From Candidatus Tectimicrobiota bacterium (GTDB taxonomy: Bacteria; Tectomicrobia; Entotheonellia; Entotheonellales; Entotheonellaceae), in the NCBI GenBank assembly GCA_026005175.1, contig BPKO01000003.1, forward strand, positions 347,489-411,488: DNA of 64,000 nucleotides, given 5' to 3'. Shown here piece by piece: positions 4,154 to 58,528 of this stretch (position 1 is its first letter; every line of letters starts with the position of its first letter). The position numbers and the translations under genes were made by a program. The notes below the pieces were generated by a model that worked only from the letters and a program-made list of their open reading frames with translations, was not told the DNA's origin and did no database searches.

Positions 4154-5053
4154 ATGAGCTTACTGGCCCATGCCCAAGACCTGACCGCGCACGAGCTGCG
4201 AACCCAGATTCGCCTCGCCGTGCAGCGCTGTGAAACCCTGCCCACCCTGCCCGGCGTTGCCGAGCGGCTGCTCGCCCTGGTTCGCGACATCAACTCCGCC
4301 GTCAGCGAGCTGGAAGCCGTCCTAAAGCGGGATCTCACTTGCGCGGCGCGTGTCCTGCAGCTGGCCAACTCTGCTTACTACAGCCACAACAAAGCGGTCA
4401 CCTCGCTGCGCCGCGCGGCCCTGCTCATTGGCTTCAACGCCATCGAAGCCATTGCCAGCGAGCTCCCCGTGTTTGCCTGCTTTCGCACTCCCGATCCCGA
4501 AGCCATGGCGCGCGTGCTTGGCATCTGGCGCCACGGCATCGCCGTAGCCACAGTGGCAGAGTACCTGGCACACCACACGCGGCAGGCTGTCGAGACCGAC
4601 CTCGCCTTCTGCGCCGGCCTCCTGCACAACATCGGCCAGGTGGTCCTCCTGCACCTCTTTCCTGACGCCTATCACCCGCTGCTGGCCCGCCTGCAGCAGG
4701 AACCGGAGACCGACCTGCCGCGGCTGGAACTCGAGACGCTGCACGTGACGCACACCGAGGTGGGCTTCTGGCTTGGGGAAGCCTGGCATTTCCCTCCCCC
4801 CCTGCTCGATGTGATCTCCCAGCACCACTTTGCGCGCCTCACCGAGCCGCTGCTGGCCGTGGTGGCCCTTGCCGACAGCCTGGTCAAGCGCCACGGGGTG
4901 GGCTTGCCCGGCAAGACGCCGCTTCGCACCGACGTCGAGGCCCTGCGGCGCCTGCTCGGGCTTTCGCCCAAGCACTTAGAGACCTGTGATGCGATTCTGA
5001 CCCAAGTCAGCGAGCAGCTGCACGCCCTCCTCCCGGCCGCCGCGGGCGGCTGA
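4154..5053 (+). CDS. HDOD domain protein
   Basis: A 299-residue protein dominated by an HDOD domain, a catalytically dead relative of HD phosphohydrolases used in bacterial signalling. The domain opens with LPTLPGVAERLLALV near residue 35 and continues with LTCAARVLQLANSAYY. HDOD proteins commonly regulate motility, the cell cycle or c-di-GMP responses. The frame is open well upstream, but the ATG at 4154 fits the domain boundary and the upstream codons are antisense to the amidohydrolase. No second domain is evident, so its partner is unknown. Confidence 0.85.
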   Translation: MSLLAHAQDLTAHELRTQIRLAVQRCETLPTLPGVAERLLALVRDINSAVSELEAVLKRDLTCAARVLQLANSAYYSHNKAVTSLRRAALLIGFNAIEAIASELPVFACFRTPDPEAMARVLGIWRHGIAVATVAEYLAHHTRQAVETDLAFCAGLLHNIGQVVLLHLFPDAYHPLLARLQQEPETDLPRLELETLHVTHTEVGFWLGEAWHFPPPLLDVISQHHFARLTEPLLAVVALADSLVKRHGVGLPGKTPLRTDVEALRRLLGLSPKHLETCDAILTQVSEQLHALLPAAAGG

Positions 5054-5138
5054 GTCGCAAATCGCCTCGACATCGGGCCGCAAATGCCGTATGATGGCGG
5101 TACCGGACGCACTCGCCCTGTGACGGGAGGACGGCAGG

Positions 5139-6506
5139 ATGGCCCGAGAAACCCGCTCGATTGCCGAGGAGTATGCAGCGCGCTTTGCCCAGTCGCGCCA
5201 GCTCTTTGCCGAGGCGCAAGCCCTTTTGCCCGGCGGCATCACCCACATGGCCCGCGCCTTTGACCCCTTTCCCCTCTACATCGACCGCTGTGTGGGCGCC
5301 TACAAATGGGATGTAGACGGCAACCAATACATCGACTACTGGATGGGGCACGGTGCCATGCTGCTGGGCCACGCCCATCCGGAAATCGTGGCGGCGATTC
5401 AGGCCCAAGCCAGCCGCGGCACCCATGCCGGCGGCAACACGCGCCTGGAAATGGAGTGGGCCCGCCTGCTCACCGACTTGGTGCCCTGCGCCGAACAGGT
5501 GAAGTTTACCAGCTCCGGCACCGAAGCCACGCTGCTGGCGCTGCGCGCCGCCCGCGTCTACACCGGCAAGCGCAAAATCATCAAGTTCGCCGGCCACTTC
5601 CACGGCTGGCACGACTACGTGGCTTGCGGCGTGCTGCCGCCTTACGACGTGCCCATGTCGCCCGGCATTCCGGAGGCGGTGCAGCAAACAGTGCTCGTGC
5701 TTCCCTTTAACGACAAGGAAGCCCTCACGCAGGCGCTGGAGAGCTCGGACGACATCGCCGCGGTGATCGTCGAGCCCGGCGGCGCTTACAACGACACCGT
5801 GCCGGCCGATCCCACCTTTCTCACCCACCTGCGCCAGGAAACGGCTCGCCGCGGCGTGGTCTTGATTTTCGACGAGGTGGTCACCGGCTTTCGCTACGCC
5901 GTGGGCGGTGCCCAGGAGTACTTCAACGTCATTCCCGACCTCACCACCCTGGCCAAAATCATGGCCGGCGGCCTCAACGGTGGGGCCGTGGTGGGGCGGC
6001 GCGACATCATGGAGGTGTTTGCCCCTGGCGCTGACCCCGTGCAGGCGCGCTACCACCGCATCCCGCACCCGGGCACCTTCAACGCCAATCCCCTCTCGGC
6101 CGCTGCCGGCATCGCCGCACTGCGCCTCATTGCCACCGGCGAGCCGACGAAGCGGGCTCAGGAAATGGCCGACTTGCTGCGGCAGGGAATCAACGAAGTG
6201 CTTGCCCGCCGCGGCATTCCCGGCTGTGCCTATGGCCGCGCCTCGATCTTCAAGACGTTTATCGGCGCCGAGCCGCCGCGCCTGACGCGCTTTGACTTTC
6301 GCAACGCCCGCGAGGAAGCCGACGTCTTGCTGCAGGGAACGCCGCTTGCCCCGGTATTGCGCAAAGGGCTGCTGCTCAACGGTGTCGACCTCATGCGCGT
6401 GGCGGGCTTCGTGTCGGCAGCCCATACGCCGGAGATCATCGAGGCCACGGTGCAGGCCTTCGACCGCACCCTGGCCCGCATGCAGCAGGAAGGACTGGTG
6501 CCCTGA
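5139..6506 (+). CDS. Class III pyridoxal-phosphate aminotransferase (GSA-aminomutase-like)
   Basis: A 455-residue fold-type I PLP enzyme. Visible landmarks are LPGGITHMAR near the N-terminus, TSSGTEATLLALR for phosphate binding, GHFHGWHDY, the aspartate of IFDEVVTGFR, and the PLP lysine K273 in TLAKIMAGG. It resembles glutamate-1-semialdehyde 2,1-aminomutase and omega-aminotransferases. The divergent lysine motif and extra length argue against calling it hemL, so it is left as an aminotransferase/aminomutase of unknown substrate. The ATG at 5139 follows GGGAGGAC. Confidence 0.85.
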   Translation: MARETRSIAEEYAARFAQSRQLFAEAQALLPGGITHMARAFDPFPLYIDRCVGAYKWDVDGNQYIDYWMGHGAMLLGHAHPEIVAAIQAQASRGTHAGGNTRLEMEWARLLTDLVPCAEQVKFTSSGTEATLLALRAARVYTGKRKIIKFAGHFHGWHDYVACGVLPPYDVPMSPGIPEAVQQTVLVLPFNDKEALTQALESSDDIAAVIVEPGGAYNDTVPADPTFLTHLRQETARRGVVLIFDEVVTGFRYAVGGAQEYFNVIPDLTTLAKIMAGGLNGGAVVGRRDIMEVFAPGADPVQARYHRIPHPGTFNANPLSAAAGIAALRLIATGEPTKRAQEMADLLRQGINEVLARRGIPGCAYGRASIFKTFIGAEPPRLTRFDFRNAREEADVLLQGTPLAPVLRKGLLLNGVDLMRVAGFVSAAHTPEIIEATVQAFDRTLARMQQEGLVP

Positions 6507-27537: not shown

Positions 27538-27634
27538 TGGCGGAAGCGTGTGGGAGTCGAACCCACCACCGACGTTTCTAGCGTCGGTCACTGGATTTGA
27601 AGTCCAGGCGGCACACCGGCACCGCTACGCTTCC
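27538..27634 (-). tRNA. selC: tRNA-Sec (UCA anticodon)
   Basis: Folds as a bacterial selenocysteine tRNA. It has an 8-bp acceptor (GGAAGCGT/ACGCTTCC), discriminator G with encoded CCA, and an anticodon stem CTGGA/TCCAG around loop CTTCAAA with anticodon TCA. The extra arm is long (CCGACG/CGTCGG) and the T stem is 5 bp (GTGGG/CCCAC). The 8+5 acceptor-T helix is the SelA/SelB recognition feature. It works with selA and selB at 17.4-20.7 kb. Confidence 0.95.
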
Positions 27635-46132: not shown

Positions 46133-46891
46133 TGGGGTCAGAGTCCTTTTTTCGGCTACGCCGGTGAGGTATACTGGCGGGCAAAGCAGAAGGCCGAGGT
46201 GCGGTGTGGCGCACAAGAACGCGGGGACTGCTTGGCGCAAGTGGGGTGGTGCTGGCCTTGCTGGTGGGCCTGGCCAGCGCGCAGGAAGGTTTTAGCCAGA
46301 AAGACCGCGAGCTGCTGCGTGAGCTCGCGGTGCGGGTGGGGGAACTCGACAAGCGCCTTGGCGAGCTGCGCCAGGACGTCAGCCAGCGCTTTGAGCAAGT
46401 CGACCAGCGCTTTAATGAGCTGCGCCAGGATGTCAACCAGCGCTTCGCGCAGATCGACCAGCGCTTTAATGAGCTGCGCCAGGACGTCAACCAGCGCTTC
46501 GAACAGGTCGACCAGCGCTTTGCGCAAGTCGACCAGCGCTTTGCGCAAATCGACAAGCGCTTTGATGAGCTGCGCCAGGACGTCAACCAGCGCTTTAATG
46601 AGCTGCGCCAGGACATGAACCAGCGCTTCGCGCAGCTCACCCAGTTTCTCTACATTCTCTCTGGCATTTTCACCGCCCTGGTGGCGGTGGTGATTGGCTT
46701 TGCTTACTGGGATCGGCGCACCATCATCCGCGAGGCGCGGCGCGAGGCCATCGAGTGGATGGAGAAAGAAGGCACGCTGCGGCGGGTGGTCGAGGCCCTG
46801 CGGGAGGTGGCCCGCGAGGATGCCCGCATGGCCGAGGCCCTGCGCCGCACCCACATCCTGTAATGGAAAATTGGGGTCAGAGTCCTTTTTT
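46133..46891 (+). repeat. Coiled-coil gene cassette A with flanking direct repeats
   Basis: The left repeat TGGGGTCAGAGTCCTTTTTT starts at 46133 and the identical right repeat at 46872. Between them are a leader with GGTGAGGTATACTGGCGGG and one gene (46204-46863). The same layout recurs at 49.0 and 53.1 kb. The repeat resembles GGGGTCAGAG-type repeats I have seen beside REP-associated Y1 transposases, but no such transposase is present here. Confidence 0.8.
46204..46863 (+). CDS. Signal-peptide/coiled-coil/TM protein, copy A (219 aa)
   Basis: N-terminal signal or anchor helix (LLGASGVVLALLVGLASAQ), then a coiled coil built of five 11-residue units (RFNELRQDVNQ type) and six 7-residue units (RFEQVDQ type). 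A TM helix (FLYILSGIFTALVAVVIGFAYW) and a charged tail ending RRTHIL follow. Topology predicts a periplasmic coil and a cytoplasmic tail. The GTG at 46204 follows GAGGTG. Two paralogs (copies B and C) differ only in repeat number and point changes. Function unknown; it is paired in the region with Uma2-type genes. Confidence 0.8.
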   Translation: MWRTRTRGLLGASGVVLALLVGLASAQEGFSQKDRELLRELAVRVGELDKRLGELRQDVSQRFEQVDQRFNELRQDVNQRFAQIDQRFNELRQDVNQRFEQVDQRFAQVDQRFAQIDKRFDELRQDVNQRFNELRQDMNQRFAQLTQFLYILSGIFTALVAVVIGFAYWDRRTIIREARREAIEWMEKEGTLRRVVEALREVAREDARMAEALRRTHIL

Positions 46892-47129
46892 CGCTTGCGC
46901 GCAGAGCCTCTGCGGCAAGCCCTTGCGTGCTCCCGCGCCGGCGCGGAGGAAGGGGACAGGCTTCTTTTTTAGGCGCAGCCAGGGCACGGGCCCGTACCGT
47001 TTTCAGCAAAGCCCCGCAGACGCAGCGAGCCCACCGCAAAAGGGCTGCCGGGCCCTCAGGGCTATGACACAGAGGCGTTCATGGGTTCCCGCTTCATGGT
47101 GGCCGTCCGTCGGGATTGTACGCCCCTGC
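46892..47129. other. Non-coding stretch with a second repeat-like motif
   Basis: No credible gene. It holds GGGGACAGGCTTCTTTTTT at 46952-46970, similar in design (G-rich core then T-run) to the cassette repeat. It separates cassette A from the HepT/MntA pair. Confidence 0.5.
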
Positions 47130-47585
47130 TCAGGGCTCGGGAAGACGCTCCACGAACGCCTCCACGTATCGGATATAGCGCTCGTAGTCCCTCAGGCAGG
47201 AGCGGATGGACGAATGCACCTGGGCAGGGTCCACCGTGTTGTACTCGTGAACCAACACGTTTCTCAGCCCTACACTGCGAGCCACCGACTCGCCAAACGC
47301 TCGGGGATACACGCCCAGGTCCGCCAGCATCAGGAAGGTGTCCCGATAGGTGAGTCGCGTAATCCTGTCCTCTTCGCCCGTGGCAAGTTCCGCAATCAGG
47401 TGCTCGTTGATGTCTATGGCACGGTTGATGATGCGCTCTAGGATCCGCTCCACCGCCGCCTGGCGGATAAAGTCCCCAAGGAGCTCCTCTAGGGAAACAT
47501 CCCGGAAACTCAGAAGACGGCCCAGTTCCTCCGCGATAAGACCGAGTTTCCTTCTGACCAGCGGTTTATTGACAGTGGAACTCAT
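47130..47585 (-). CDS. hepT: HepT-type toxin (HEPN, DUF86)
   Basis: A 151-residue HEPN RNase. The catalytic Rx4HxY motif is RNVLVHEY near residue 118. The N-terminal helices and the NRAIDINEHLIAE segment are typical of DUF86. HepT cleaves RNA unless its Tyr is AMPylated by the partner MntA. The start overlaps the mntA stop by 4 bases (ATGA), the standard antitoxin-toxin coupling. Confidence 0.88.
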   Translation of the reverse strand: MSSTVNKPLVRRKLGLIAEELGRLLSFRDVSLEELLGDFIRQAAVERILERIINRAIDINEHLIAELATGEEDRITRLTYRDTFLMLADLGVYPRAFGESVARSVGLRNVLVHEYNTVDPAQVHSSIRSCLRDYERYIRYVEAFVERLPEP

Positions 47586-48011
47586 TGATCATGCAGGCAG
47601 CGATGGAGGAAGGCCATCTTCTTGCGAAACAGGATGCCCTCCAGGCGGCGCAGGTCCTCCGACGCCACGAAGTCTCGGTACGCGAAGATGCGGTACGAGT
47701 CAAACAGCGTCCTGTCCCCGTAGAGCAGAAGGCCGTGGCGCATGATCTCAAAACGGAACAGAGGGTCTGCGGTGTTCAGGAAGACCAGGTCCAGCGCGTA
47801 ACCCCGAAAGACTTCTGCCAGGGCAAAGTACACCTCCCGCCAGCGGTCTGCCGAGGGGGCTTCTTTGTCCAGGACCGCCACGTCCAGGTCGCTGCCCGGG
47901 CGGGCAAGGCCCCGGGCCCCGGGACCCGAAAAGCACCACCATTCGGAGCCCCAGCGCCTCGGCCCTATCCTCCAGGTCCTGGAGGAGGGGCAACGTCAGC
48001 GGTGGACCCAC
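47582..48011 (-). CDS. mntA: MntA-type nucleotidyltransferase antitoxin, frameshifted
   Basis: A minimal nucleotidyltransferase. MVVLFGSRG in one frame is followed, after a shift in a G/C run near 47920, by LARPGSDLDVAVLDKE, which completes the GSx(n)DxD catalytic motif. The remainder (EVFRGYALDLVFLNTADPLFRFEIM) is typical. MntA AMPylates HepT. A GTG at 48011 is the likely start; it lies just beyond the breakpoint with a Uma2 5' remnant. Confidence 0.78.
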
Positions 48012-48139
48012 GCCTGGACCCATCCCCAGCCGCCCGCTTCGATGAGCGCCACCCGCTCGTCCTCGGAGAGGATGCCGGCCGCGGCCAGCTTGTGGTCCTC
48101 GGCCACCGTGAAGCGGCGCCTCGGAAGCTGAACGGCCAT
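48004..48139 (-). pseudogene. Uma2 5' remnant (copy U0)
   Basis: Begins MAVQLPRRRFTVAEDHKLAAAGILSEDERVALIE, the N-terminal 35 residues of the local Uma2 genes. It then runs into unrelated sequence and a stop. The breakpoint is near 48040, directly before mntA. It keeps the Uma2 ribosome-binding site (GGAGG), so mntA-hepT may now be expressed from a former Uma2 control region. Confidence 0.7.
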
Positions 48140-48250
48140 CGCCCCTCCTTGGCGGCTGTGGCGTCTGACGCACTGACGCAATCGACGCACTCGGCGCCTT
48201 TGTCTACCCGCTCCTCAGCCTACCACAGGGGGGCCGGTGGGGCAAGAGGC

Positions 48251-48346
48251 ATCAGAGTCCTTTTTTCGGCCACCCTGGTGAGGTATACTGGCGGGCAAAG
48301 CAGGAGGACGGGATGCCGTGGAAAATTGGGGTCAGAGTCCTTTTTT
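48251..48346 (+). repeat. Emptied coiled-coil cassette
   Basis: The left arm (ATCAGAGTCCTTTTTTCGG, then GGTGAGGTATACTGGCGGG as in copies A-C) runs within 50 bases into the right arm (GTGGAAAATTGGGGTCAG at 48320-48337, repeat to 48346). The whole gene between is missing. This is what recombination or slippage between arms would leave, or a cassette acceptor form. Confidence 0.75.
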
Positions 48347-48363
48347 CGCAACAGCCGCGAGAG

Positions 48364-48924
48364 CTAGCCCAGGAGGGCGTCCACGGCAAGCGAAAGCTCG
48401 GGCAGCAGCAAGGGGGCCACGGTGTCGCCCCGCCGCAAGGTCTGGACCACCTGGTAGCCCTGGGGCGAGGGGTGGCGATAGACCTCCACGCATTCCCCCG
48501 CTAGGTCTACCAGCCATACCTCCGGAACCCCAAAGCGGGCATAGAGGGGCACTTTCACCTCCCGGTCGTACTCGGCCGACGTTTCGGCCACCTCCACCAC
48601 CAGGAGGAGATCCTCGGGACCCGGGTGCTCGGCGGCATAGAAGTCAGCGCGCGGCTTCAGCAGCGCCAGGTCCGGCTGGGGCTCGGAGTGCTCCCCCAAA
48701 CGAACAGGGTTCTGGACGTCGACGATGGCCCGTTCGCCGGCCCCTCGGGACAAAAGGGCGTTCAAGCGTCTGACGCATGTTGCATGCCGGCTTCCAATCG
48801 GACTCATCGCCACGAGTTCTCCTTCGATGAGCTCCACTCGGTCATCTTCGCCAAGGATGCCCGCCTCAGCCATCTTGTGGTACTCGGCCACCGTGAAGCG
48901 GCGCTTTGGCAGCGTAACGGCCAT
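48364..48924 (-). CDS. Uma2-family (DUF820) restriction-endonuclease-like protein, copy U1
   Basis: A 186-residue PD-(D/E)xK-fold protein: FTVAEYHKMAEAGILGEDDRVELIEGEL at the N-terminus, D in PQPDLALLKPR, E in LLLVVEVAETS and K in EVKVPLYARFGVPEVWLVDL. All catalytic positions are present. The ATG at 48924 follows GGAG. It faces the emptied cassette and is followed upstream by cassette B. The family is expanded in cyanobacteria and Thermus-like genomes; its role is unresolved. Confidence 0.85.
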   Translation of the reverse strand: MAVTLPKRRFTVAEYHKMAEAGILGEDDRVELIEGELVAMSPIGSRHATCVRRLNALLSRGAGERAIVDVQNPVRLGEHSEPQPDLALLKPRADFYAAEHPGPEDLLLVVEVAETSAEYDREVKVPLYARFGVPEVWLVDLAGECVEVYRHPSPQGYQVVQTLRRGDTVAPLLLPELSLAVDALLG

Positions 48925-49000
48925 GGTGCTTCTCCTTCTGCCCTTGCACGCCCCCGCTCTCTTCAGGCTACCCCAGGGAAGCCGCCGGGGCAAGCAGTAT

Positions 49001-49792
49001 TGGGGTCAGAGTCCTTTTTTTGGCTACGCCGGTGAGGTATACTGGCGGGCAGAAGGCAGGAGGCCGAGGTGCGGTGTGGCGCGCAAGAACGCGGGGACTG
49101 CTTGGCGCAAGTGGGGTGGTGCTGGCTTTGCTGGTGAGCCTGGCCAGTGCGCAGGAGGGCTTTAGCCAGAAAGACCGCGAGCTGCTGCGCGAGCTCGCGG
49201 TGCGGGTGGGGGAGCTCGACAAGCGCCTTGGCGAGCTGCGCCAGGACGTCAACCAGCGCTTCGAACAGGTCGATCAGCGCTTTGGTGAGCTGCGCCAGGA
49301 CGTCAACCAGCGCTTGGAACAAGTTGACCAGCGCTTTAATGAGCTGCGCCAGGACGTCAACCAGCGCTTCGAACAGGTCGACAAGCGCTTTGCGCAAGTC
49401 GACCAGCGCTTTGCGCAAATCGACAAGCGCTTTGATGAGCTGCGCCAGGACATGAACCACCGCTTCGCGCAAATCGACAAGCGCTTTAATGAGCTGCGCC
49501 AGGACATGAACCAGCGCTTCGCGCAGCTCACCCAGTTTCTCTACATTCTCTCTGGCATTTTCACCGCCCTGGTGGCGGTGGTGATCGGCTTTGCTTACTG
49601 GGACCGGCGCACCATCATTCGCGAGGCGCGGCGCGAGGCCATCGAGTGGATGGAGAAAGAAGGCACGCTGCGGCGGGTGGTCGAGGCCCTGCGGGAGGTG
49701 GCCCGCGAGGATGCCCGCATGGCCGAGGCCCTGCGCCGCACCCACATCCTGTAATGGAAAATTGGTGAAAATTGGGGTCAGAGTCCTTTTTT
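49001..49792 (+). repeat. Coiled-coil gene cassette B with flanking direct repeats
   Basis: Left repeat at 49001 (preceded by GCAGTAT, shared with cassette C) and right repeat at 49773, with the gene at 49074-49754. The right arm continues into about 170 bases nearly identical to 48350-48520, meaning the cassette and the Uma2 3' end were duplicated together. Confidence 0.8.
49074..49754 (+). CDS. Signal-peptide/coiled-coil/TM protein, copy B (226 aa)
   Basis: Same architecture as copy A, with five 11-residue and seven 7-residue coil units; the non-repeat part is again 122 residues. N- and C-terminal domains are nearly identical to copy A. A GTG at 49074 matches the copy A start. It is convergent with Uma2 copy U2. 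Confidence 0.8.
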   Translation: MWRARTRGLLGASGVVLALLVSLASAQEGFSQKDRELLRELAVRVGELDKRLGELRQDVNQRFEQVDQRFGELRQDVNQRLEQVDQRFNELRQDVNQRFEQVDKRFAQVDQRFAQIDKRFDELRQDMNHRFAQIDKRFNELRQDMNQRFAQLTQFLYILSGIFTALVAVVIGFAYWDRRTIIREARREAIEWMEKEGTLRRVVEALREVAREDARMAEALRRTHIL

Positions 49793-49809
49793 CGCAACGG
49801 CCGCGAGAG

Positions 49810-50374
49810 CTAGCCCAGGAGGGCGTCCACGGCAAGCGAAAGCTCGGGCAGCAGCAAGGGGGCCACGGTGTCGCCCCGCCGCAAGGTCTGGACCACCTGG
49901 TAGCCCTGGGGCGAGGGGTGGCGATAGACCTCCACGCATTCCCCCCGCTAGGTCTACCAGCCATACCTCCGGAACCCCAAAGCGGGCATAGAGGGGCACT
50001 TTCACCTCCCGGTCGTACTCGGCGGAGGTCTCAGCCACCTCCACCACCAGCAGGACCTCCTCGGGACCGGGATGCTCGGCGGCATAGAAGTCAGGGCGGG
50101 GCCGAAGCAAGGCCACGTCGGGCTGGGGCTCAGAGTGCTCGCCAAGCCGGATGGGATCCTGGACGCTCAGGAGAACCCTCCTTGCCGCTTGTAAGGGAAT
50201 GAATTGATCCAGGAGGCGTTTCACGGCACCGGCGTGCCGGCTCCCAATAGGGGCCATCGCCACAATCTCCCCCTCGATCAGCTCCACCCGCTCGTCCTCG
50301 GAGAGGATGCCCGCCTCGGCCAGCTTGTGGTATTCGGCCACCGTGAAGCGGCGCTTTGGCAGCGTAACGGCCAT
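49810..50374 (-). CDS. Uma2-family protein, copy U2, frameshifted
   Basis: As U1 up to VWLVDLAG (about residue 144), where a run of six C (49941-49946) replaces the five C found in U1 and shifts the frame. Beyond it the DNA is almost identical to U1, so the intact product would end at 49810. The middle differs from U1 (LLDQFIPLQAARRVLLSV), so this is a diverged paralog with a recently homogenised 3' end. The 258 bases upstream hold no gene. Confidence 0.8.
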
Positions 50375-50632
50375 GGCGCTTCTCCTTGTCCTTGCGCGCC
50401 CCCGCTCTCTTCAGGCTACCCCAAGGGAAGCCGCCGGGGCAAGGGGCACTTCCCGCCCTGCCGCCCCCCGCGGGCGCCTTGGCCCGCCGGCCCGGCCGCA
50501 CAAGGCGCCTACCCCTTTTTCCGCCGATGGCAGGGGACCTTCAGCCTCAGGATCGGGAGGGTGCGTGAGCACGGGAGCGTGCTGGAGGATTACCGAAGGG
50601 GATGTACAGGGCGGTTAAGCACTCGGAGACGA

Positions 50633-50800
50633 TCATTCCTCAAGGACTTCCCGCAGGGCCTCCACGTCCCGCCGCAGCGCCTCCGGGGTCTGGGCCAGGA
50701 CGGGCAGGCCGTGCTTCGCCATCAGATCCAGAAGCGCCCAGCGACCACGCCCAAGAGGTCCGCGGCCTTTCCTTGCGAGATCTCCTCCCGTCTGCATCCT
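50633..50800 (-). pseudogene. UPF0175 antitoxin remnant
   Basis: The C-terminal part only: EISQGKAADLLG in one frame and GRWALLDLMAKHGLPVLAQ in the next, matching the pattern of UPF0175 proteins (compare the intact one at 62845-63099). Its 5' part is replaced by IS607-type sequence. Confidence 0.55.
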
Positions 50801-50821
50801 CTGTCCCCAGCTTACCCACCC

Positions 50822-50968
50822 AATCCGGTTCACCTTAGGAGCGCGCAGCACGCGCTGCAGCTTCTTCCGCTTCCCGTTCAGCCCGGAACCGATCTCGGCC
50901 ACCCCGTCGCAGTCCGGCCAGCCCTGCTCCCGGGCAAACGCCTGAAGGCGCTGCACCTGGCGCTGCCT
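50822..50968 (-). pseudogene. IS607-type serine recombinase remnant
   Basis: About 49 residues, RQRQVQRLQAFAREQGW followed by AEIGSGLNGKRKKLQRVL, matching the central part of IS607 OrfA resolvases (RQxxRLxxxA...EIGSGLNxxRxxL). The N-terminal HTH and catalytic Ser region are not intact. It abuts the truncated UPF0175 gene. Confidence 0.6.
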
Positions 50969-51160
50969 TTCTGGAACCACCGCCCCCCCGCCGTCCGTCG
51001 GCCGGGGGGATATCGACCCGGTAGGGGGGCTGGACCCCGGAGCGAGCGCGTGCAGACGAGAAAGGGAGCAGGAGAAAAGCGCGCCCCAGGATGTCCAGCA
51101 GCCTTCCAAGGAACAGCCCTGTTGCACGGGACCCCCAGAAAGGAAGAAACGCCGTGTGCA

Positions 51161-51519
51161 TTAGACCAGCAACATCCGCCTGGGTTGCAGGGTGCGGCTA
51201 AACGGGTTAAACACCAACCCCAACACCTCAAGCGTCACCACACCAAGGAGGGGGCCTCATCATCTCCCGGCTCACCCAGGATCACAGGGGTATGCCCTTC
51301 CCCTTGTGGCAGCATGATGTAACACTCCGACACCTGCCGCCTGACGATGGTGCCATCGGCGAGCTGAAAATCACACTCCCGCTTCGGAGTCAGCTCGATG
51401 GCCCTCCAGACCGGTTCAGGAAGGAGGGAATACGTCGCTCCACTATCGACGAGAAAGCGGACGGTTTCCTCTTTCCCCTTTGGCCCCCGGACTCTTCCTT
51501 CAATGTAGGTAATCCCCAT
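51161..51519 (-). CDS. Retropepsin-like aspartic protease, frameshifted
   Basis: A small single-domain aspartyl protease with FLVDSGATYSLLP (the DSGA active site) near residue 25, and VILGEPGDD, which precedes the second beta motif. A shift at a C run near 51245 cuts the frame; the next frame continues LLGVVTLEVLGLVFNP to a stop at 51161. The intact product would be about 119 residues. The ATG at 51519 follows GGAGGGAATC. Such proteins are frequent in thermophile accessory regions and act as homodimers. Confidence 0.7.
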
Positions 51520-51984
51520 GATTCCCTCCACAGCGGGGACCTAGAACCTCGCACTTCTCGCCCAGGTGCGGACGCCGCGGTGGTATGTGACCCCGGGGAA
51601 CAAATGCCGGCACCGCCATCGCACACGTCCTGGCGCTCTCAGCCTACCACAGGGGTGCCTGGGGGGACAAGGGGAGAGCTCCCGCGGCTAGGTGTACCGC
51701 AGGCCGGCGCATCAAGACGAATCTAGCTCTAGTGGGCTATGGGAGAGACGCGCGGCGCGGGAGAGGAGATTAGGGGAGGGGAACGGGGAAGGGCACGGCA
51801 GCACGCGGCGTGCAGGACCAGCTGCACCGCTTCCGGGCGGCCGCGCCCAGCACACCGACGTCGCGCCGCGCCAGGACAGCCCCCCGCACGGGCCTTGGCG
51901 CGCCGGGGCAAGCGTCGTACGCAGATGGCCTGCCAGCACCGAGCTCTGGGGCACGGCGGTCGACGAGGCCCTGAGCGGGGACGG

Positions 51985-52210
51985 AAGCCCTCGCGGCCCC
52001 AGGACAGCAGGGCACCACGGGTTGCTGCTTGCGCCGCTGCGCCTCCAAGTTGATCTTGGCTGGCAGCAGGGCGTGGGCCAGCGCGCGCACCTGGACACAG
52101 ATGGCCAGCGAGGCTGCGGCGATGCCCTGAAGGTCTGGGGCGTGCACAATCGTGTCGATCCCCTGCTTGCAGCGTTGCCGCAGCTGGTCGACGATCTGGG
52201 CGTGGTCCAT
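51985..52210 (-). pseudogene. Possible transposase N-terminal remnant (ISKra4-like)
   Basis: MDHAQIVDQLRQRCKQGID, then VRALAHALLPAKINLEAQ and PVVPCCP, reminiscent of the N-terminal part of ISKra4-type transposases (AKxxLExQ then a CCP zinc knuckle). It dissolves into frameshifted sequence. The rest of 51532-52541 has no recognisable gene. Confidence 0.3.
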
Positions 52211-52541
52211 GGCGTGCCTCCGGTTGCAGACGATAACGCGCAGGGGTTCCACCAGGAGACGTCATGGACCGCCTTCCTTCAATATGGAGGCACACCCTGG
52301 GGGACATGCCACTGGCCACACACTACCGGGGCGATCCGCAGGCACGCGGGGCCGAGCGGGACCGAAGACGGGCTCAAGCTGCGGAGGAAAGGAGCGTCTA
52401 CTGGAGGACACATGCCCAAGGGCGGGAGGACCCCTCACAAAGGGTCAATTCGTCTCAATGCGTTCCCCCCGGTCAGGATTGGCACCGGGAACTCCTGTTG
52501 CCAACTCTTGGTCTCACCCGCACGGCCGCAGGACGCCTGCG

Positions 52542-53057
52542 CTAGCCCAGCACGCCCGCGACGGGCAGAGGCACTGCTGGCAGCGCCTGCGGAGCCAGGC
52601 GCTCACCCTGCCCCAGGATGCGCACCGCCTGGGAGCCCTGGGGCGAGGGGTGCCGATATACCTCCATGTGCCCCGCGGCCAGATCCACCAGCCAGACCTC
52701 CGGGATGCCGAAGCGGGCATAGAGGGGCACCTTCACCGCCCGGTCGTCCTCCAGAGAGGTCTCGGCCACCTCCACCACCAGCAGGACGTCCTCGGGACCC
52801 GGGTGCTCGGCGGCATAGAAGTCAGGGCGGGGCCGAAGCAAGGCCACGTCGGGCTGGGGCTCGGAGTGCTCCCCCAGGCGGACGGGGTTCTGGGCGCTGA
52901 CGATCGCCCGCTCGCCCACCAGCCGAGAGAGGAGCCGGTTGAGCCGGTTCACGTGCCCCGCATGGCGACTCCCAATAGGGGCCATCGCCACAATCTCCCC
53001 CTCGATCAGCTCCACCCGGTCATCTTCGCCAAGGATGCCCGCCTCGGCCAGCTTGCA
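52542..53057 (-). pseudogene. Uma2-family gene with 5' end removed, copy U3
   Basis: The frame is intact from KLAEAGILGEDDRVELIEG to its stop, with the catalytic D, E and K present. The first 16 or so codons (the MAVxLxKRRFTVAEYH part) are replaced at 53055-53061 by the left end of cassette C. The C-terminus also differs (VRILGQGERLAPQALP). Without a start it is probably silent. Confidence 0.75.
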
Positions 53058-53885
53058 GTATTGGGGTCAGAGTCCTTTTTTTGGCCACGCCGGTGAGGTA
53101 TACTGGCAGGGAGAAGGCAGGAGGCCGAGGTGCGGTGTGGCACGCAAGAACGCGGAGACTGCTTGGCGCAAGTGGGGTGGTGCTGGCCTTGCTGGTGAGC
53201 CTGGCCAGTGCGCAGGAGGGCTTTAGCCAGAAAGACCGCGAGCTGCTGCACGAGCTCGCGGTGCGGGTGGGGGAGCTCGACAAGCGCCTTGGCGAACTGC
53301 GCCAGGACGTCAACCAGCGCTTTAATGAGCTACGCCAGGACGTGAACCAGCGCCTGGAGCAAGTCGACAAGCGCTTCGCACAGGTTGATCAGCGCTTTAA
53401 TGAGCTGCGCCAGGACGTCAACCTGCGCTTGGAACAAGTTGACCAGCGCTTCGCACAGGTCGACAAGCGCTTTAATGAGCTGCGCCAGGACATGAACCAG
53501 CGCTTCGCGCAAGTTGACCAGCGCTTCGCACAGGTCGACAAGCGCTTTGCGCAAATCGACAAGCGCTTTGATGAGCTGCGCCAGGACATGAACCAGCGCT
53601 TCGCGCAAATCGATAAGCGCTTTGAGCAGCTCACCCAGTTTCTTTACATTCTTTCAGGCATTTTCACCGCCCTGGTGGCGGTGGTGATTGGCTTTGCTTA
53701 CTGGGATCGGCGCACCATCATCCGCGAGGCGCGGCGCGAAGCCATCGAGTGGATGGAGAAAGAAGGCACGCTGCGGCGGGTGGTCGAGGCCCTGCGGGAG
53801 GTGGCCCGCGAGGATGCCCGCATGGCCGAGGCCTTGCGCCGCACCCACATCCTGTAATGGAAAATTGGGGTCAGAGTCCTTTTTT
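53055..53885 (+). repeat. Coiled-coil gene cassette C inserted in a Uma2 gene
   Basis: Left end GCAGTATTGGGGTCAGAG, with the repeat at 53062 and the right repeat at 53866. The gene lies at 53135-53857. The left end cuts the U3 Uma2 gene; the right end runs into the 3' end of Uma2 copy U4. It is the longest of the three copies. Confidence 0.8.
53135..53857 (+). CDS. Signal-peptide/coiled-coil/TM protein, copy C (240 aa)
   Basis: As copies A and B, with five 11-residue and nine 7-residue coil units. The constant part is again 122 residues. Leu replaces Phe in some units (RLEQVDK). The start is the GTG at 53135 by analogy with copy A. Convergent with U4. Confidence 0.8.
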   Translation: MWHARTRRLLGASGVVLALLVSLASAQEGFSQKDRELLHELAVRVGELDKRLGELRQDVNQRFNELRQDVNQRLEQVDKRFAQVDQRFNELRQDVNLRLEQVDQRFAQVDKRFNELRQDMNQRFAQVDQRFAQVDKRFAQIDKRFDELRQDMNQRFAQIDKRFEQLTQFLYILSGIFTALVAVVIGFAYWDRRTIIREARREAIEWMEKEGTLRRVVEALREVAREDARMAEALRRTHIL

Positions 53886-53902: not shown

Positions 53903-54463
53903 CTAGCCCAGGAGGGCTTCGACGGCAAGCGAAAGCTCGGGCAGCAGCAAGGGGGCCACGGTATCGCCCCGCCGCAAGGTCTCGACCGCCTGGTAGCCCT
54001 GCGGCGCGGGCTGGCGGTAGACTTCCACCTGTGCGGCCGCCAGGTCCACCAGCCACACCTCGGGAATCCCAAAGCGGGCATAGAGGGGCACCTTCACCGC
54101 CCGGTCGGGGGCCGCCGAGGTCTCGGCCACCTCCACCACCAGCAGGACGTCCTCGGGACCCGGGTGCTCGGCGGCATAGAAGTCCGGGCGGGGTCTGAGC
54201 AGCGCCACATCCGGCTGGGGCTCCGAGTGCTCCCCCAAACGAACAGGGTTCTGGACACGGACGATGGCCCGTTCCCCCGTTCTTTGGGAGAAGAGCCGGT
54301 TCAGGCGATCGACGCACGCCGCATGGCGACTCCCAATCGGCGCCATCGCCACAATCTCCCCCTCGATCAGCTCCACCCGGTCATCTTCGCCAAGGATGCC
54401 CGCCTCGGCCATCTTGTGATATTCGGCCACCGTGAACCGGCGCTTCATCAACTGAACAGCCAT
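53903..54463 (-). CDS. Uma2-family protein, copy U4
   Basis: A complete 186-residue gene: MAVQLMKRRFTVAEYHKMAEAG, D in PQPDVALLRPR, E in VLLVVEVAETS, K in AVKVPLYARFGIPEVWLVDL. The ATG at 54463 has a GGAG leader. It faces cassette C. It differs from U1 in the middle but shares the 3' block. Confidence 0.85.
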   Translation of the reverse strand: MAVQLMKRRFTVAEYHKMAEAGILGEDDRVELIEGEIVAMAPIGSRHAACVDRLNRLFSQRTGERAIVRVQNPVRLGEHSEPQPDVALLRPRPDFYAAEHPGPEDVLLVVEVAETSAAPDRAVKVPLYARFGIPEVWLVDLAAAQVEVYRQPAPQGYQAVETLRRGDTVAPLLLPELSLAVEALLG

Positions 54464-54643
54464 CGCTGTGTCTCCTTCCGCCATCCGAAACCCCGCTTCC
54501 GTCCCATCCTTCCCCCGATCCTCTGTAGGCTACCGCGAGCGGGGCCGGCGGGGCAAGCGTCGGGACGTACAAGGACGTCTTGGGAAAGTAGCGAGCGCGA
54601 AGGCCGTTCAGCGGGCGGCGCAACCGAGTGTGTCCCCTCTTAC

Positions 54644-57676: not shown

Positions 57677-57758
57677 GTCCCCGAACGGGCACCGGCAGGA
57701 CCTGCTCGGAAGAGGCCCAGGCGGCGTACAGGAGGGCCTGGCGGACGTCCTCCTTGTT
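57657..57758 (-). pseudogene. DUF433 antitoxin, C-terminal remnant
   Basis: Only NKEDVRQALLYAAWASSEQVLPVP plus a short tail remains, the C-terminal helix pair of DUF433 (LTxEDVxxALxYAA). DUF433 normally sits directly upstream of DUF5615, as here. Its N-terminal part has been replaced by a fragment of the coiled-coil cassette. Confidence 0.6.
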
Positions 57759-57838
57759 CACTGCCCTGGTGGCGGTGGTGATTGGCTTTGCTTCCTGGGA
57801 TCGGCGCACCATCATTCGCAAGGCCATCGCGTGGCGAA
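57757..57838 (+). repeat. Coiled-coil cassette fragment D
   Basis: An 80-base piece encoding TALVAVVIGFASWDRRTIIR, the TM helix and start of the tail of the cassette protein, with a deletion after it. No flanking GGGGTCAG repeat is present. It is joined on one side to the truncated DUF433 gene and on the other to a palindrome and a TnpB-like remnant. Confidence 0.75.
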
Positions 57839-57858
57839 AAAGGGGACTGTCCCCTTTT
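57838..57858. repeat. Palindrome AAAAGGGGA-CTG-TCCCCTTTT
   Basis: A perfect 9-bp inverted repeat with a 3-base loop, sitting at the junction between cassette fragment D and the TnpB-like remnant. It shares the G-core/T-run style of the cassette repeat and of the motif at 46952. Confidence 0.7.
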
Positions 57859-57864
57859 CCCGTA

Positions 57865-58528
57865 TCAAAAGCCGTGCCGCCGGATCGGCGAGGGCGAGGT
57901 GGGGCTGGATATCGGCCCGTCCACGCTTGCGGTCGTCGGGGAGGGAGGCGCATGGCTTGAGCCGTTTTGCGAAGGGGTTGTCCGTAAGCACCGGCTGATC
58001 CGCAGGCTTGAGCGCAAGCTGGACCGCCAGCGCCGGGCGAACAACCCCGGCAGCTATCTGCCCGACGGGCGGATCAACCCCGGTCCGAAGCGGTGGGTGA
58101 AGTCGCACCGCCAGCGGCAAACGCAAGACGAGTTGGCCGATCTTCTCCGCCGTGAGGCGGCCCACCGCAAGACGCTGCACGGGCAGTTGGCCAACCGTGT
58201 CCTGGCGCTGGGCCAGGTTGTCAAGATGGAGAAGCTCTCCTACCGTGCGTTGCAGCGGCAGTACGGCAGGTCCGTAGGGGTGCGGGCGCCGGGAAAGTTC
58301 GTCTCGATTCTCCGCCGCAAGGCGGAGAGTGCCGGCGGCAAGGTGATCGAGTTCCCCACCTGTACCACGAAGCTCTCCTCATTCTGCCACGGCTGCGGCG
58401 CGGTGAAGAAGAAGCCTCTTGCCCAGCGCCTCCACCGGTGCGAATGCGGGGTCGAGATGCAGCGCGACCTCTACTCCGCGTTCCTGGCTCGGTGCGTGGG
58501 GGAGGACGGTTTGCTCCACGCGGGCTAG
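57865..58528 (+). pseudogene. TnpB-like (IS605/IS607 OrfB) nuclease remnant
   Basis: RuvC-I Asp in VGLDIGPSTLAVV, RuvC-II Glu in KMEKLSYRALQ, zinc ribbon CHGCG...CEC and RuvC-III Asp in VEMQRDLYSAFLA are all present. The N-terminal RNA-binding half is missing; the open frame starts in unrelated cassette sequence. A TAG at 58526 interrupts it, and the same frame continues ARAAWPDAEPLLRAAWS, family-like, to about 58690. It is therefore dead at both ends. The stretch 58690-58820 has nothing else. Confidence 0.75.

Follow-up and report, generated by a model that had tools for sequence, protein, structure and literature searches.

To our knowledge, TIRYT and RAYT transposases are thought to be domesticated and to spread only short repeats.

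The TIRtron or TIRYT repeats (Di Nocera 2013, PMC3733652; TnpAREP subclass 2.1, PMC6006769) share with the repeats described here the GGGGWSAS core, the enclosure of a Y1 transposase gene by inverted copies and a moderate abundance as single copies, dimers and clusters, whereas the array analyzed here consists of eight direct copies that frame genes other than a transposase. TIRYT transposases have terminal inverted repeats with the common motif GGGGWSAS (PMC3733652), and the TIRYTs themselves are placed mostly in TnpAREP subclass 2.1 (PMC6006769). REP and BIME sequences and the REPINs of RAYTs (Nunvar 2010, PMC2817692; Bertels and Rainey 2011, PMC3116915) are likewise short and hairpin-like and depend on a link with a Y1 transposase resident in the genome, with inter-repeat segments that are amplified, and close inverted pairs elsewhere in the present genome are REPIN-like. 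The array differs from them in having no GTAG head, in an inter-repeat segment that is a whole 0.7-kb gene and in its direct orientation. The closest described case is that of BIMEs in which rayt 3' ends have been captured between REPs (PMC2817692). In the open-licence literature searched, we found no case in which TIRYT or RAYT repeats were described as carrying an entire protein-coding gene apart from that of the transposase itself, which is no proof of novelty.

Two further systems are similar in part. MITEs also consist of non-autonomous DNA between transposase end repeats, but they have inverted ends and no coding capacity, whereas the array has direct ends around genes. Integron gene cassettes also form arrays of accessory genes separated by short, imperfect palindromes in one orientation; integrons, however, are defined by a tyrosine integrase (intI) and an attI site, and the array carries repeats on both sides of the gene and contains genes in both orientations. 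No recombinase or integrase was recognised among the array open reading frames (translations read, Pfam on ten of them), and an integron reading was therefore rejected.

Organization of the repeat-framed array

A total of eight copies of a 19-base repeat, GGGGTCAGAGTCCTTTTTT (TIR-B), were found between 46 and 54 kb of the window, the whole stretch of 64,000 nucleotides that was analyzed. Seven copies are exact and one has two mismatches, and all eight lie on the plus strand (0.01 expected from shuffles). They frame three coiled-coil genes (cc1, cc2 and cc3) and a fourth unit from which the gene has been deleted, while the segments between units carry Uma2 genes and a HepT/nucleotidyltransferase pair. 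The features are, in order:

46134..46152, plus: TIR-B copy 1, exact, left of cc1; its outer flank is unique DNA after tRNA-Lys
46204..46863, plus: cc1 gene, 219 aa; signal peptide, heptad coil, TM helix and WDRRTII predicted
46873..46891, plus: TIR-B copy 2, exact, right of cc1
47130..47881, minus: HepT-like RNase (PF01934) and partial MNT nucleotidyltransferase (PF18765, just under cut-off), a toxin-antitoxin pair between TIR-B copies
48037..48140, minus: Uma2-E, N-terminal fragment only
48248..48266, plus: TIR-B copy 3, two mismatches, left end of the deleted cc unit
48252..48346, plus: deleted cc unit, promoter part (88% to cc1) fused to DNA after the cc stop codon
48328..48346, plus: TIR-B copy 4, exact, adjoining the Uma2-A 3' end
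48364..48924, minus: Uma2-A (PF05685, 3e-38)
49002..49020, plus: TIR-B copy 5, exact, left of cc2; A-tract lost, no hairpin fold
49074..49754, plus: cc2 gene
49774..49792, plus: TIR-B copy 6, exact, right of cc2, adjoining the Uma2-B 3' end
49778..50374, minus: Uma2-B, frame shifted near the 3' end by an extra base; the open frame runs into TIR-B
52542..53055, minus: Uma2-C, 5' end truncated at the cc3 unit
53063..53081, plus: TIR-B copy 7, exact, left of cc3; A-tract lost
53135..53857, plus: cc3 gene
53867..53885, plus: TIR-B copy 8, exact, right of cc3, adjoining the Uma2-D 3' end
53903..54484, minus: Uma2-D (PF05685, 1e-39)

The initial annotation had described three plus-strand units with the repeat at both ends, each around one gene with the same N- and C-terminal domains and with no transposase or recombinase inside, and this description is confirmed; its repeat positions were one base low, and the copies at 48248 and 48328 had been missed. 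The framed units are 758, 791 and 823 bp long with one gene each (about 219-240 aa), and they are 93-99% identical outside the coil, which varies in length between products that are otherwise alike at both ends. A -10-like box (TATACT, 46170-46175) lies upstream of cc1.

The product had earlier been termed a secreted coiled-coil protein. A better description is a predicted signal peptide and a long heptad coil, then one predicted membrane helix and the invariant segment WDRRTII, with a short tail of helical structure; the signal peptide and the membrane helix are both read from the sequence. It is probably a membrane-anchored coiled-coil protein of the periplasm. The predicted structure is a single long helix followed by short tail helices, and it gives no indication of function. 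Pfam and NCBIfam contain no family that describes the cc proteins, the matches being coiled-coil models of low specificity, nearly all below cut-off. The gene family is common in thermophiles. Its relatives occupy 51 loci in MAGs and genomes from Thermodesulfatator, Aquificota, Kapaibacteria, Nitrospinae and Deltaproteobacteria, and one genome often has several copies. A search of plasmids and phages gave no match.

Rfam gave no match over the region except tRNA. Elsewhere in the window, a selenocysteine tRNA is predicted at 27538-27634 on the minus strand. Relatives of the same family keep the tig-tRNA-Leu-tRNA-Lys synteny, followed by tRNA-His or other DNA; the island has no counterpart in them, and they thus offered no empty site for comparison.

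The repeat family and its Y1 transposase

On sequence grounds, TIR-B is the terminal-inverted-repeat family of a predicted TIRYT/RAYT-type Y1 transposase. All exact copies contain the core GGGGTCAG, which fits the GGGGWSAS of TIRYT tyrosine transposases (RAYT group 1, or TnpAREP subclass 2.1), in agreement with the earlier suggestion that the repeat is akin to those bordering RAYT-like Y1 transposases. A classical GTAG REP identity was rejected, as neither GTAG nor GT[AG]G stands at the foot of the palindrome in the TIR-B copies read. The annotation had also advised a search of the genome for a Y1 transposase with matching repeats, and one was found at C3:108746-109447, an uninterrupted gene (PF01797) on the same contig as the array and 284 kb from it. 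It is enclosed by inverted copies of AAAATGGGGTCAGAG at 108739 (plus) and 109480/109532 (minus). Y1_Tnp was the only Pfam domain reported for this protein, in which a C-terminal HTH domain was sought as a feature of subclass 2.1.

The genome holds four Y1_Tnp matches, and three of these genes have a repeat family of their own:

Family A: GGGGACAGGCTACTTTTT, Y1 gene at C8:27.7 kb
Family B, that of the array: GGGGTCAGAG[TA]ACATTTTT, Y1 gene at C3:109 kb
Family C: GGGGTCAGGTCTTGAA, Y1 gene at C4:307 kb

Family A copies form mostly close inverted pairs, as REPINs do. In the ORF list, the family C transposase (L108 6468-7510, C4:306467-307509) appears in two pieces that lie in different reading frames. 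A looser form of the array repeat, GGGGTCAGAGTNNNTTTT, has 23 matches in this genome, seven of them in the array, and a single match in 59 other genomes. Outside the window, TIR-B mostly has a stem of A-tract and T-tract, AAAAATG-GGGTCAGAGTA-CATTTTT. Of 290 genomes searched, 58, this one included, have a match to the transposase of family B with an E-value no higher than 1e-30; at ten of the 30 homologue loci scanned, GGGGWSAS lies on both sides, and many others have inverted repeats with related heads, for example GGGGACGG. In other genomes, inverted repeats that begin with GGGGAC or GGGGTC accompany many homologues.

The stem differs within the array. Right-hand copies pair at six of eight positions and the left-hand copies of cc2 and cc3 at four of eight, and the cc2 left copy has no stable fold (MFE 0). 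In both left-hand copies, most of the hairpin is gone.

Junctions and the origin of the array

The cc1 unit forms the left end of the array, after tRNA-Lys. The Uma2-E fragment, the deleted unit, Uma2-A, cc2 and Uma2-B come next, and the right part consists of the truncated Uma2-C, cc3 and Uma2-D, so that minus-strand Uma2 genes alternate with the units. Three of the four units share one right junction, in which TIR-B is followed by the Uma2 3'-end sequence CGCA[AC]C[AG]GCCGC, and one site in the Uma2 5' flank is the left junction of both the deleted unit and cc2. Microhomologies were observed in the deleted unit, where 80 bp between the TIR-B copies at 48248 and 48328 retain the promoter part and the right end (TGG; GTGG/ATGG as read from the alignment), and at the left junction of cc3 (GTATT). 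Since three of four repeat/Uma2 junctions are identical and the other breakpoints have microhomology, the alternation of units and Uma2 genes resembles tandem duplication. Identity between Uma2-A and Uma2-B is 100% in the roughly 200 bp beside TIR-B and only 45-70% deeper in the genes, and this shows that they recombined recently. Together, junctions, microhomology and this block are the pattern that recombination in a tandem array would leave.

We therefore consider it reasonably probable that the transposase seeded the repeats and that the array beside tRNA-Lys then grew through ordinary recombination accompanied by gene conversion. We infer the order of events from the repeats, transposase, junctions and identities observed. 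The C3 transposase with its inverted TIR-B would be the likely source of the scattered copies, and in the island after tRNA-Lys copies of the repeat would have come to flank a coiled-coil gene that had a Uma2 gene as its neighbour. The Uma2 and TIR-cc-TIR unit would then have been duplicated in tandem, partly deleted and partly homogenised through homologous and microhomology-mediated recombination, as the junctions suggest, with the cc gene a passenger of the duplication rather than a gene of transposition.

Three observations stand against tandem duplication. The cc copies look younger than their Uma2 neighbours unless gene conversion is invoked: 0-7% of fourfold sites differ between the cc1-3 tails and 23-53% between full-length Uma2 pairs (23% for Uma2-A and Uma2-D), so that a simple duplication would have to be supplemented by gene conversion between the cc copies or by their later movement. 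The homology of cc1 to cc2 and cc3 stops at TIR-B on both sides, as it would for a transposing unit, and all eight TIR-B copies keep one orientation. The promoter part of the deleted unit is 12-17% different from cc1 and cc3, a divergence that favours conversion, as this part would be an old duplicate that lay outside it.

The same observations could be read as movement of TIR-cc-TIR, as a non-autonomous cassette, in trans by the resident Y1 transposase, in which single-strand cleavage at two direct TIRs would yield a circle with one TIR that re-inserts at another TIR or at a new site. The genome contains a transposase gene that has matching TIRs and is free of internal stops, the cc copies look young and are bounded at TIR-B, and the BIME model provides for cleavage at two directly repeated REPs to give a circular module (PMC2817692). 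Nevertheless, we regard this explanation as rather unlikely. The activity of the transposase is a prediction, the left-hand TIRs pair poorly, identical Uma2 junctions recur, and the TIRs are direct here and inverted both at the transposase genes and at the family C elements described below. Moreover, no cc gene framed by TIR-B was found outside this 8-kb array, either in the rest of the genome or at the 51 loci in other genomes, where no comparable direct repeats flank cc genes (one of these loci, L048, has long tandem repeats that are unrelated). The initial annotation had proposed that the gene moves as a cassette and that repeat and gene be sought together at unrelated loci; none was found, about 15 dispersed TIR-B sites carry no cc gene, and the array fits tandem duplication with its Uma2 neighbours.

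Cc genes without a TIR-B frame were found at C3:29.5 kb (79% identical over the tail), C4:129.6 kb and C4:308 kb. At C4:286 kb, a further copy is bracketed by direct repeats that belong to another transposase family and whose positions disagree with the edges of the gene that was copied. Two homologues on C4 (L107 6685-7347 and L109 6398-6954) agree at about 99% in their aligned ends, on either side of the coil, and have unrelated flanks, with homology edges just outside the gene. This pair was rejected as proof of mobility, as the direct TIR-C repeats of L107 lie off the homology edges and L109 has none; ectopic gene conversion accounts for the pair equally well. A 68-bp fragment of a cc gene (93-94% identical) was observed at window positions 57757-57824, beside AAAAAGGGGACTGTCCCCTTTT and an ORF (57782-58528) that reads like a TnpB C-terminus.

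Local amplification of the BIME kind, driven by the RAYT, would treat the gene as an inter-repeat segment that does not disperse. It is consistent with the local clustering of REPs and with the rayt 3' ends captured in BIMEs (PMC2817692), but we think it quite improbable, as head-to-tail TIR-cc-TIR-cc arrays are absent and Uma2 genes lie between the units. The cc copies have the appearance of an array that was duplicated locally within an unstable island, and a new mobile element is not proven.

Passenger DNA between family C repeats

At least six family C elements of 300-670 bp were found at dispersed loci, with related interiors and with homology that ends at their inverted TIRs. They show that TIR-bounded passenger DNA exists in this genome, which is a further point for movement in trans. 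These MITE-like elements of a TIRYT lie at C1:310910, C1:318359, C3:35707, C5:38342, C5:40325 and C5:178466 (L200, L204, L208 and L209). An HTH_66/DUF433 and PIN_10 toxin-antitoxin pair was observed between inverted TIR-C copies (L199 4860-6739, C1:290859-292738) whose ends match the MITE-like family. A separate observation on C3 is a recurring translation pattern, FTPTCVGTI / HPHVRGDN, which is CRISPR-array-like (L205 around 4500-5500, C3:183.5-184.5 kb).

Unrelated genes, including toxin-antitoxin pairs, also lie between neighbouring copies of TIR-C that are 0.3-5 kb apart and stand in either orientation, and framing by direct repeats alone is therefore weak evidence of mobility. Together with the solo TIRs found between genes at many loci, this would suit the independent insertion of TIRs on either side of genes already duplicated, the framing of cc being coincidental. 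We judge this highly improbable, as unbroken homology links TIR and cc in three units, junction bases included.

In its broadest form, mobilisation in trans would mean that a RAYT/TIRYT-type Y1 transposase moves protein-coding cassettes bounded by direct TIRs through single-strand circles and so builds integron-like accessory arrays of coiled-coil, Uma2 and toxin-antitoxin genes; we hold this to be unlikely. If TIRYT or RAYT repeats can carry whole genes or help to amplify them, they would provide a route to building accessory islands. Even if ordinary recombination produced the array, as we prefer, this genome is a good place to test what TIRYT and RAYT enzymes move, because it holds three TIR families, their transposases, TIR-bounded elements of 300-670 bp and the gene array.
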